A stretch of 64,000 nt of DNA from Oscillospiraceae bacterium (GTDB lineage: Bacteria; Bacillota; Clostridia; Oscillospirales; Oscillospiraceae). Both the position numbers and the translations under genes were made by a program. Shown one piece after another: positions 2,438 to 36,976 of the stretch. Under the pieces are notes generated by a model. It saw only the letters and a program-made list of their open reading frames with translations, was not told the DNA's origin and made no database searches. Location: the NCBI GenBank assembly GCA_015067835.1, contig SVLS01000001.1:1-64000 (forward strand), written 5' to 3'. The first letter of the stretch is position 1; each line of letters starts with the position of its first letter.

Positions 2438-3109
2438 TCAATTGGAAAATTCAGGAGGGTTTACCGGGTTCCCAGCAAAGGCATTAGGGCCGGGGTCGGA
2501 CATGGAGAAATACATTTTTGCCGCCTTTGTGGTTCCGAAATCCCGATTAGACCCGGAATTTTGCACCTCGTTGAATGCATCCCGGAACATTTGATTGTGG
2601 GCCTCCTCACGGTTGAGTAGGAAATCGATGGTCTCCCGCACCTTCTTATCGTGAATTTGCCGGTACAGATACTCATAGACCACCTTTGCCCGCTGCTCTG
2701 ATGCGATATTGCTCAATAAATCGGCGCACAGGTCTCCTGTCACCGTCACATAGTCCGCTGTCCATGAATAGCCGGATGCGTTGATAAGGCCCGGATTCAA
2801 ACCCAGAATCACATGGCTCTGAATCTCACCGGCATTGACCTGGTCAGCGCCCACATCGTGACCGTTCAGCAGGTTAATCGTCTGTGCAACCATTTCCATA
2901 TGACCCAGCTCCTCAGCCGCAATGTCCAAAAACAGGTCCTTGATCTTAGGGCCTTTGATACGGAAGCTCTGTGACATATACTGCATGGCAGCCTTCAATT
3001 CGCCGTTGCCGCCACCCAGCTGCTCCTGCAGCAGCGCTGCATACTGGGGATTGTGGCGCTCGATCCCCACCGGGTGAAATAACTGCTTTTCGTGCTTGAA
3101 CAAGCACAT
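2438..3109 (-). CDS. Manganese catalase family protein / spore coat CotJC-like
   Basis: MCLFKHEKQLFHPV...NPQYAALLQEQLGGGNGELKAAMQYMSQSF...AAEELGHMEMVAQTINLL; SD AAGGGAG upstream. Confidence 0.88.
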   Translation of the reverse strand: MCLFKHEKQLFHPVGIERHNPQYAALLQEQLGGGNGELKAAMQYMSQSFRIKGPKIKDLFLDIAAEELGHMEMVAQTINLLNGHDVGADQVNAGEIQSHVILGLNPGLINASGYSWTADYVTVTGDLCADLLSNIASEQRAKVVYEYLYRQIHDKKVRETIDFLLNREEAHNQMFRDAFNEVQNSGSNRDFGTTKAAKMYFSMSDPGPNAFAGNPVNPPEFSN

Positions 3110-34529: not shown

Positions 34530-34531
34530 GC

Positions 34532-34565
34532 AAATTCCCCGGCTCTCTGCCGGGGAATTTTTCTG
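34532..34565 (+). terminator. Terminator of the hom-lysC-asd operon
   Basis: AAATTCCCCGGC...GCCGGGGAATTT. Confidence 0.75.
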
Positions 34566-34584
34566 CCATCTCTCCACCCACCAC

Positions 34585-34706
34585 GTCATTGCGAGGAGGG
34601 CGAATGCCCGACGTGGCAATCTCCTGTCGCCATCTACCGACACATTTCGCAGTAACAAACTGCGCACCAGGAGATTCCCACGGTCGCTGCGCTCCCTCGG
34701 AATGAC
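34585..34706. repeat. Palindromic MITE/REP-like element, copy A
   Basis: Ends GTCATTGCGAGG / CCTCGGAATGAC, inner arms CGTGGCAATCTCCTG / CAGGAGATTCCCACG; related copy at 61191..61283. Confidence 0.75.
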
Positions 34707-34728
34707 ATAAAAAGTCGTGTCATTGCAA

Positions 34729-34776: not shown

Positions 34777-36153
34777 TTAGACGCCCAGCAGCATATTGGC
34801 AAACAGGAAATAAACCAGCAGACTCAAAGCGTCCACAATGGTGGAAATAAACGGACTTGCCATCACCGCCGGATCCAATCCCAGCGCCTTCGCTGCCAGC
34901 GGCAGGATACAGCCCACAAATTTTGCGCAAACCACCGTCACCGCCAGCGTCAGGCACACCACGCCATTGACCAGGAAGGTAATGTCGCTGTTGCCCATCA
35001 GCAGGTTATCCACCAGCCATATTTTCAAAAAGCACACCAAACCCAGTGCAATACCGCAAAGGACGGCTGTGCGCAGCTCCTTCCAGATTACCGCACCCAA
35101 ATCAGAGAATTTCAGTTCTCCCAGACTCAGGGCGCGAATCACCGTAACGCTGGACTGTGCGCCGGAGTTGCCGCCCGTGCCCATCAGCATGGGAATGAAG
35201 GCCGTCAACACCACCTGCGCCGCTAACGCACCCTCAAAGGCAGTGATAATCATTCCCGTAAAGGTCGCCGACACCATCAGGAGCATCAGCCAGGGGATTC
35301 TGTTTTTAAACAGCTCAAACACAGAGCTCTTCATATAGGTCTTTTCGGACGGAAGCATACCGCCCATCAATTCCATATCCTCCGTGGTCTCGTCCACCAT
35401 AACGTCCATAACGTCATCAAAGGTAACGATGCCAACAAGGCGGCCTTCTCCATCCACCACCGGCATTGCCAGGAAATTGTACCGATTGAACATCTGTACC
35501 ACTTCCTCCTGGTCGGTATGGGTGTTGACGGAGATGAAATTGGTTAACATAATATCGGACACCCGAATCTCATCATCCTGCACCAACAGCAAATCCTTCA
35601 CCGTGGTCAGACCAATCAGTTTTCTTCCCTTGGTCACATAGCAGGTATAAATGGTTTCCTTGTCCACACCTTGACGGCGAATCCGCAGAATTGCCTCCTC
35701 CACCGTCATCTCCGGACGAAGCGCCACATATTCCGTGGTCATCAGCGAGCCGGCAGAATTGTCCGGATACCGCAAAATCTGGTTGATGGATTTGCGCATT
35801 TCCGGGTCGGCCTGCTTCAGAATCCGCTTGACCACATTGGCCGGCATCTCCTCTACCAGGTCGGCCGCATCGTCCACATACAGCTCGTCCACGATTTCCT
35901 TCAGCTCGTTGTCAGAAAAGCCGCGAATCAGCAGCTCCTGCGCCTCAGGATCCATTTCCACAAAGCTTTCTGCCGCCAATTCCTTGGGCAGCAGGCGAAA
36001 TACCAGAGGAATACGGGACTCCTCCAGTCCTTCGAACAGCCCAGCCACATCGATGGGATTCATGGTAGAAAGCATCTCCCGCAATGCGTGGTATTTTTTC
36101 TCCTCCAGCATTTTCAGCAGGGCTTGTTCCATAATTTCAAAACGTTCTGTCAT
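34777..36153 (-). CDS. mgtE: Magnesium transporter MgtE
   Basis: MgtE N-domain, two CBS domains, C-terminal TM domain with LMGTGGNSGAQSSVTVIRAL and MASPFISTIVDALSLLVYF. Confidence 0.95.
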   Translation of the reverse strand: MTERFEIMEQALLKMLEEKKYHALREMLSTMNPIDVAGLFEGLEESRIPLVFRLLPKELAAESFVEMDPEAQELLIRGFSDNELKEIVDELYVDDAADLVEEMPANVVKRILKQADPEMRKSINQILRYPDNSAGSLMTTEYVALRPEMTVEEAILRIRRQGVDKETIYTCYVTKGRKLIGLTTVKDLLLVQDDEIRVSDIMLTNFISVNTHTDQEEVVQMFNRYNFLAMPVVDGEGRLVGIVTFDDVMDVMVDETTEDMELMGGMLPSEKTYMKSSVFELFKNRIPWLMLLMVSATFTGMIITAFEGALAAQVVLTAFIPMLMGTGGNSGAQSSVTVIRALSLGELKFSDLGAVIWKELRTAVLCGIALGLVCFLKIWLVDNLLMGNSDITFLVNGVVCLTLAVTVVCAKFVGCILPLAAKALGLDPAVMASPFISTIVDALSLLVYFLFANMLLGV

Positions 36154-36201
36154 ATTCCTTCCTCCTGTTTTTAAGATTTGGAAGGCAATATGCGCAAGCG
36201 A

Positions 36202-36276
36202 TTACTTCCGGAGGCTACGCCATAACGCCTCCAGCGGACTTCGCTCAGGTATATTGCCACTACTGCCGGCGTCCAT
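36202..36276 (-). CDS. 24-aa candidate leader peptide upstream of mgtE (MDAGSSGNIPERSPLEALWRSLRK)
   Basis: SD AAGGAGGG at ideal spacing, ATG to TAA; lies just downstream of a consensus promoter and inside a strong inverted repeat. Confidence 0.6.
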   Translation of the reverse strand: MDAGSSGNIPERSPLEALWRSLRK

Positions 36277-36307
36277 TGCGTTCCCTCCTTTAATATCAGA
36301 TATTGAC

Positions 36308-36336
36308 ATTTTATTCCCATTGCTTCAAATTGTCAA
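36308..36336 (-). promoter_or_regulatory. Promoter of the mgtE leader transcript
   Basis: Minus strand TTGACA (36336..36331) N17 TAAAAT (36313..36308). Confidence 0.7.
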
Positions 36337-36394
36337 CCTTGACGATTGCGTTTTCCTATAATAAAATAATGTTATCATCATTTGGGAGGTTCTT

Positions 36395-36976
36395 ATGATA
36401 CGAATTGCAACCATTGCAGATATTCCCGAAATGCTGGAAATCTATGCCCCTTTCGTGGAAACGACTGCTTATTCCTTTGAATATACTGTTCCTACCTTAG
36501 AGCAGTTTACCTCCCGCTTTGAAAAATACACCCGGCAATGCCCGTGGCTGGTATGGGAGGAAAACGGTCGGGTGCTGGGCTATGCCTACGGAAGTCTTCC
36601 CTTTGAGCGGGCGGCCTATTCCTGGTGTGCCGAGGTTTCCATTTACCTTGCCCCGGAAATCCACGGTCGGGGTATCGGCAGAAAGCTATACGCCGTTCTG
36701 GAGGAAATTCTGTGGCAGCAGGGCTATCGGGTGATTTACTCGCTGATTACCAGCGAAAACACCGGCTCTCTCGCCTTTCACGAAAAGGTTGGATATCAAT
36801 ATTGCGCCACGCTGCACGGCTGCGGCATAAAATTTGGTCGCGAGCTGGGTGTGGTTTGGATGGAGAAGCGGTCAAAAGAGGATGCACTCCCCTCCAAATT
36901 CCCCCTGTCCTGGCGTGCTGTTGTCGATACCGCCAGAAAATGGTCGGATATTTTAGACAAATTGTCTCTTTCCTAA
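36395..36976 (+). CDS. GNAT family N-acetyltransferase (phosphinothricin acetyltransferase-like)
   Basis: IRIATIADIPEMLEIYAPFVETTAYSFEYTVPT, EIHGRGIGRKLYAVLEEIL, LAFHEKVGY. Confidence 0.92.
   Translation: MIRIATIADIPEMLEIYAPFVETTAYSFEYTVPTLEQFTSRFEKYTRQCPWLVWEENGRVLGYAYGSLPFERAAYSWCAEVSIYLAPEIHGRGIGRKLYAVLEEILWQQGYRVIYSLITSENTGSLAFHEKVGYQYCATLHGCGIKFGRELGVVWMEKRSKEDALPSKFPLSWRAVVDTARKWSDILDKLSLS

Follow-up and report, generated by a model that had tools for sequence, protein, structure and literature searches.

The mgtE gene of an Oscillospiraceae bacterium is preceded by a leader that probably acts as a switch, in which the ORF of a translated leader peptide lies within an RNA that can adopt either of two mutually exclusive folds, and the position of the ribosome selects between them to control mgtE. 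By comparison of related genomes, a frame that appears to be translated, three covarying helices, competition between their strands, and a tie to mgtE were shown. The leader would represent an apparently undescribed tuning of Mg2+ uptake by ribosome progress along a short leader; no paper describing it was found in the open-access literature. The locus lies in the window, that is, the whole 64,000-nt stretch of DNA that was analysed, and all leader and mgtE features given below are on its minus strand.

Leader ORF upstream of mgtE

The leader-mgtE transcript has a promoter, TTGACA-17-TAAAAT, at 36308..36336 (TTGACA at 36336..36331, TAAAAT at 36313..36308; 11 of 12 matches), and a promoter-like pair was found 30-70 nt 5′ of the leader start in 42/43 members of group A (the genus of the window and its close relatives) and 49/51 members of group B, compared to 17% of shuffled sequences. 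The promoter is followed by the leader Shine-Dalgarno (SD) sequence AAGGAGGG (36283..36290), which is retained among leader-bearing relatives, and by a 24-codon ORF, MDAGSSGNIPERSPLEALWRSLRK (36202..36276; ATG at 36276, TAA at 36204..36202), characterized by its conservation, 3-nt periodicity, and frame. The leader stop is separated by 48 nt from the start of mgtE (34777..36153), whose SD and start codon, GGAAGGAATATG, occupy 36151..36162. The coordinates given to the promoter, SD, ORF, and pairings in a preliminary description of this DNA all proved exact. The mgtE product is a full-length MgtE with MgtE_N, two CBS, and MgtE channel domains (Pfam), and no other gene of its genome matches the MgtE Pfam family. 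Its best solved relative is 2yvx (E 5e-83), with which the pore motif aligns (LGLDPAVMASP with LGVDPALVSNP), including the ion-binding Asp of the pore.

Two further elements were observed around the transcription unit. At 36331..36344, the leader TTGACA overlaps back-to-back with a plus-strand promoter (TTGACG-17-TAAAAT, 36339..36367) that precedes a GNAT acetyltransferase gene at 36395, and the core of these divergent promoters, GTCAAGGTTGACA, recurs 5′ of mgtE in many relatives. On the 3′ side of mgtE, a dispersed palindromic repeat is located at 34577..34720; a query spanning 34530-34720 gave 86 matches in the genome, including weak partial ones, crowded on contig C16.

About 110 mgtE upstream regions were collected, both within the genus of the window and from further genomes of Oscillospirales and Lachnospiraceae, yielding 94 distinct leaders. 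The leader ORF, 20-39 codons long, is common to nearly all of the sampled regions, the exceptions being L005/L040, L041, L051, L094, and L106; the upstream regions of L092 and L108 are cut at contig ends. L005/L040 and L041 are close relatives in which a promoter-like sequence stands directly 5′ of the mgtE SD, a natural deletion of the leader. The general peptide pattern is M-D-(A/S/G/T)-G-(S/G)-(S/N)...-R-S, represented by M-[DE]-x-G-[SG]-[SN]-G-[NS]-I-P-G-R-S in group A and by MD[AG]GSSTG...GRS in group B, and the peptide varies freely past Arg-Ser. Codon 2 encodes D or E in 124/125 leaders and codon 4 encodes Gly in 120/125, while the entropies of positions 1, 2, and 3 over codons 2-5 are 0.54, 0.43, and 1.37 bits, respectively.

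The initial leader-finding script accepted in-frame distances only, and the claim for a conserved frame rests instead on a frame-blind alignment, in which every gap within the leader ORF is a multiple of three nucleotides, and on distances counted without assuming any frame: in each of the 77 distinct regions, the ATG is separated from CGAAGT by 24, 27, 30, 33, 36, or 39 nt, always a multiple of 3. Because the third codon positions are free to vary, the frame is kept in all of these regions, and the peptide is conserved across orders, comparative evidence shows that the leader ORF is no chance frame and that its translation is under selection. The near groups were drawn from relatives selected by mgtE, and the distant set was chosen by leader similarity, so that peptide conservation in the latter is partly a matter of choice, which does not apply to its tie to mgtE or to its covariation. 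The conservation of the peptide that the preliminary description had proposed to look for was borne out across the class. The Pro/acid-containing sensing motif of the mgtL type that it implied was not, as 28/51 group B leaders have no proline in codons 1-16 and the sole constant acidic residue is that of codon 2.

The ORF includes a near-invariant rare codon, CGA (Arg12, 36241..36243), which encodes the Arg in 92/94 near leaders while accounting for 5% of Arg codons in the long ORFs of the window. Ile is encoded by ATA, which makes up 9% of the window's Ile codons, in 43/43 group A leaders. The next codon after CGA, AGT for Ser13 (36240..36238), is used in 83/94 near leaders and makes up 8% of Ser codons in the window. 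CGA is also constant in the 10/87 leaders in which it is predicted to be unpaired, which reads as a constraint on the codon, with an RNA contact possible too. In enterobacteria, CGA is the poorly and slowly read member of the codon set of its tRNA (PMC4046918), and we infer slow decoding of CGA in this leader.

These data bear on two other explanations. The folded leader could itself be a riboswitch for Mg2+ or another ligand, with the ORF playing a minor part; this direct sensing would fit the alternative folds described below, the highly conserved CGAAGU, and the fact that the leader appears to have replaced the M-box in this clade, but it is distinctly unlikely, as third-position freedom, the strictly kept frame, and cross-order peptide conservation all point to selected translation, and CGA remains constant even at predicted unpaired sites. 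An amino acid attenuator or a free-standing functional micropeptide might be proposed from the conserved Arg codon and the conserved N-terminus, respectively. Either is very improbable, however: a single Arg is conserved, neither a codon run nor an intrinsic terminator of the kind expected for an amino acid biosynthesis attenuator (trpL/hisL type) was found, the downstream gene encodes a Mg2+ channel, the C-terminal half of the peptide varies freely, and the ORF was found solely before mgtE.

The association with mgtE was assessed using R1, a sequence-only model spanning the leader SD to the RS codons, in whole-genome runs that ignored mgtE. Among 295 genomes of the order, mgtE was located within ~215 nt at 26/30 fetched R1 loci, and among 391 genomes of the class, within ~250 nt at 12/16 further loci. 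Three matches, L142, L144, and L178, also belonged to the training set of the model. Among the class matches are four leaders of the MDAGSSSGTIPDR(R/S) type whose families lie outside the order of the window. At L153, mgtE is 742 nt away, and this locus was left out of the mgtE-adjacent count and of the structure tests. R1 matches without adjacent mgtE (L155, L167, L168, and L180-L183) do not show the leader arrangement and were regarded as chance; a loose DNA pattern applied across the class had given almost nothing but chance matches, and R1 was used in its place. The genome of the window carries the leader in one copy.

No Rfam 15 family matches the leader above its gathering score; the only match was a tRNA located far from it, and nothing credible appeared at E≤10. 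This conserved class of small ORFs, absent from Rfam, is easily missed in annotation. The M-box is missing from 59/60 relatives searched, and in the exception, G015, it is located (C21:137-308) immediately 5′ of a second mgtE, 49% identical, whereas the leader is retained by the orthologous mgtE. The case for the leader doing the work of the M-box rests mainly on this, and a leader switch would explain how mgtE is controlled where the M-box is missing. G015 itself has two Mg2+ devices side by side, the M-box and the leader, each before its own mgtE.

Covarying helices and strand competition

The 156-nt leader of the window has a predicted folding energy of -53.5 kcal/mol, compared to -39.6 ± 3.8 kcal/mol for dinucleotide shuffles (z -3.65; 0/200 as good). 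Four helices were delineated. In P1, leader codons 4-13 (strand b) pair with a post-stop arm (b′); in the window, these strands correspond to codons 7-12, GGCAATAT.....AGCGA (36241..36258), and to TCGCT....ATATTGCC (36184..36201). In P0, the best-supported pairing, the leader SD, AUG, and codons 2-4 (strand a, 36267..36288) pair with late leader codons (strand d, 36209..36230), which hides the leader start. P2 is a hairpin between strand c, CTGGAGGC (36227..36234), and part of d (36215..36208). In P3, the end of b′ and the pyrimidines beyond it pair with the mgtE SD; in the window, the anti-SD strand CATATTGCCTTCC (36180..36192), which overlaps b′, forms CATATT.G.CCTTCC (36192..36180) with GGAAGGAATATG (36162..36151), including the mgtE ATG. 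P1 and P3 compete for b′, and P0 and P2 compete for d.

Most of the pairings given in the preliminary description are recovered in these helices: GGCAATAT (36258..36251) with ATATTGCC (36191..36184) and AGCGA (36245..36241) with TCGCT (36201..36197) in P1, and GGAGGC (36232..36227) with GCCTCC (36215..36210) in P2. CCTTCC (36185..36180) and GGAAGG (36162..36157) also pair, as part of a longer helix; P3 extends past them and therefore covers the mgtE start codon as well. Its full length, and P0 (36288..36267 with 36230..36209), had been missed.

Covariation was assessed by comparing the duplex energies of each sequence's own strands to those obtained with strands swapped within its group, a procedure that controls for conserved letters. 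The z-scores for P1, P0, and P3 are -5.8, -7.9, and -8.0 in group A and -8.2, -11.5, and -2.9 in group B, while unrelated control pairings (three per group) range from -1.1 to +1.7. As the swap test assumes exchangeability within groups, similar sequences were thinned to limit relatedness, giving -3.2, -5.6, and -5.7 in group A and -6.2, -8.6, and -2.1 in group B, the last of these being weak for P3; five of the six thinned controls lie at -0.3 to 1.4, and the sixth, the late leader with the mgtE SD in group A, reaches -2.0. For 31 distant sequences that had not been used in helix discovery, the corresponding values are -8.6, -10.1, and -4.7 (controls, -0.2 to 1.2). Compensatory series are also seen by eye (GGAAACG/CGTTTCC, GGAGACG/CGTCTCC, GGGAACG/CGTTCCC, and GGATATACC/GGTGTGTCC). 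The covariation anticipated for the stems was therefore found in both the leader:post-stop helix and the helix masking the mgtE SD. In L056 and L059, the P3 loop carries a long insertion, and the strands CCTCTTATT...AATAGGAGG are intact. This insertion is palindromic, repeat-like, and >100 nt long, and is located between the leader and an mgtE start at 3001.

Application of RNAalifold to plain MAFFT alignments gave no useful consensus, because the loops vary and the pairings alternate, and the duplex swap tests were used instead. A pseudoknot combining P0 and P1 was rejected by reasoning, since the very short a-b link cannot span the long P1; for this reason, P0 and P1 are treated as exclusive.

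The covariation of P3 is also relevant to Rho-dependent attenuation of the type described for enterobacterial mgtA/corA, in which leader translation would expose a rut site and the P3/SD pairing would be secondary. Enterobacterial leaders of similar layout do work via Rho (PMC11552253), no intrinsic terminator was found in the window, and T-runs of at least 6 occur in just 6/94 leaders. Little credence is given to this explanation, however, as a purely transcriptional device has no need of a helix that covaries with the mgtE SD and whose strands survive long loop insertions.

Ribosome position and access to the mgtE start site

To relate these folds to translation, 87 leaders were folded with a 32-nt ribosome block placed at varied codons, and the cost of opening the mgtE SD was taken as the readout; nearest-neighbour folding of this kind describes secondary structure and ignores pseudoknots and Mg2+. 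A block at CGA raises the opening cost by a mean of ~3.1 kcal/mol relative to no ribosome, and adds >0.5 kcal/mol in 71/87 relatives (32/40 and 39/47 in the two groups). With the modelled ribosome over codons 3-15, the mgtE SD is masked by ~3 kcal/mol. The effect is largest when the codon preceding CGA occupies the P site and has disappeared by R+7, suggesting that masking is greatest for a ribosome waiting on CGA. Across relatives, these predictions agree with the earlier proposal that masking of the mgtE SD is decided by where the ribosome stands. In group B, a block at codon 1 fails to open mgtE (R-11: +2.3).

In the window, the predicted opening cost is 9.0 kcal/mol with no ribosome, 3.9 with a ribosome at the leader start, 9.0 at CGA, and 6.6 at the stop. 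As the ribosome-free fold of the window already masks the mgtE SD, the comparison that matters there is of a ribosome held at the leader start with one further on, and the contribution of P1 may be confined to transcription or to mRNAs whose leader start is occupied by a ribosome.

The proposed switch would operate as follows. In the ON fold, b would pair with b′ (P1) around the P2 hairpin (c:d), leaving the mgtE SD and start open because P1 uses up b′. In the OFF fold, b would be unavailable, b′ would pair with the mgtE SD and start (P3), and d would pair with the leader's own SD and AUG (P0), halting further initiation. A ribosome on codons 3-15, above all one awaiting CGA, where it may pause, would cover b and impose the OFF fold; absence of the ribosome from b, or its being held or lost near the leader start, would allow P1 to form and mgtE to be translated. 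Control would be exerted at translation initiation and not by Rho. The signal is presumed to be Mg2+: the leader would be elongated well when Mg2+ is high, giving OFF, and poorly, or with drop-off, when it is low, giving ON. This assignment, in which high Mg2+ shuts mgtE off and low Mg2+ turns it on, assumes that the leader behaves like mgtL, on which ribosomes elongate well at high Mg2+ and fail early when Mg2+ is low (PMC11282234).

The opposite sign would result if leader translation melted a silent fold (P0+P3) and activated mgtE, as in ordinary translational coupling. The leaders of L008, L016/L017, and L037 run through b′ and end 15-23 nt before mgtE, and their translation could open the mgtE SD instead; in the window, with the mgtE SD masked in the free fold, the opening cost drops from 9.0 to 6.6 kcal/mol once a ribosome is at the stop. 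Such coupling is unlikely, however, since the leader stop is 40-80 nt 5′ of mgtE in most relatives, a ribosome positioned there causes little mean change in mgtE-SD access, and ribosomes at codons 3-15 mask the SD.

Returning to masking by the leader ribosome, it is possible, if short of probable, that a class-wide, hitherto undescribed leader-peptide family (MDAGSS...R) before Clostridia mgtE uses the decoding rate of one invariant CGA codon, and not proline or acidic runs, to report Mg2+ and flip a double switch that sets access to both its own start site and that of mgtE. The leader offers a clean test of whether Mg2+ can be reported through the decoding of one codon.

Relation to known systems

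The M-box (ykoK leader, RF00380) likewise controls Mg2+ transporter genes in Firmicutes, but the mgtE leader element is built around a translated ORF, and the RF00380 covariance model gave no match above cut-off in the window. A mycobacterial translational M-box with uORFs (PMC12810186) shares a conserved uORF, competition among SD, anti-SD, and anti-anti-SD strands, and association with Mg2+-related genes; it differs in relying on an M-box aptamer and Rho and in having an unrelated peptide. The Thioalkalivibrio mgtE motif (PMC11109978) likewise precedes mgtE as a structured RNA, and one of its stems contains the SD and AUG; compared on the basis of its description, it differs from the present leader in being a riboswitch candidate from one genus, described without a uORF.

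The closest parallels are with mgtL and corL, the leaders of enterobacterial mgtA and corA (PMC11552253, PMC11282234), for which leader-ORF control of Mg2+ uptake has been worked out. Both systems place a short translated leader before a Mg2+ transporter, translation here being deduced from coding conservation; both have two exclusive folds with one stem hiding the leader's own SD, represented here by P0, P1, and P3, which covary and share strands; and in both, leader expression is inverse to transporter expression, as measured there and as predicted here. In contrast, the present system involves MgtE, another phylum, and an unrelated peptide without EPDP or proline runs; it has an invariant CGA codon and is conserved over a whole class; and the covarying partner of its switch strand is the mgtE SD, not a rut site. 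With the Pro/acid motif unconserved and the transporter, phylum, and peptide all different, the mgtE leader is not filed as a member of mgtL/corL; rather, a conserved, sequence-unrelated counterpart before mgtE of gut Clostridia would be a convergent solution.
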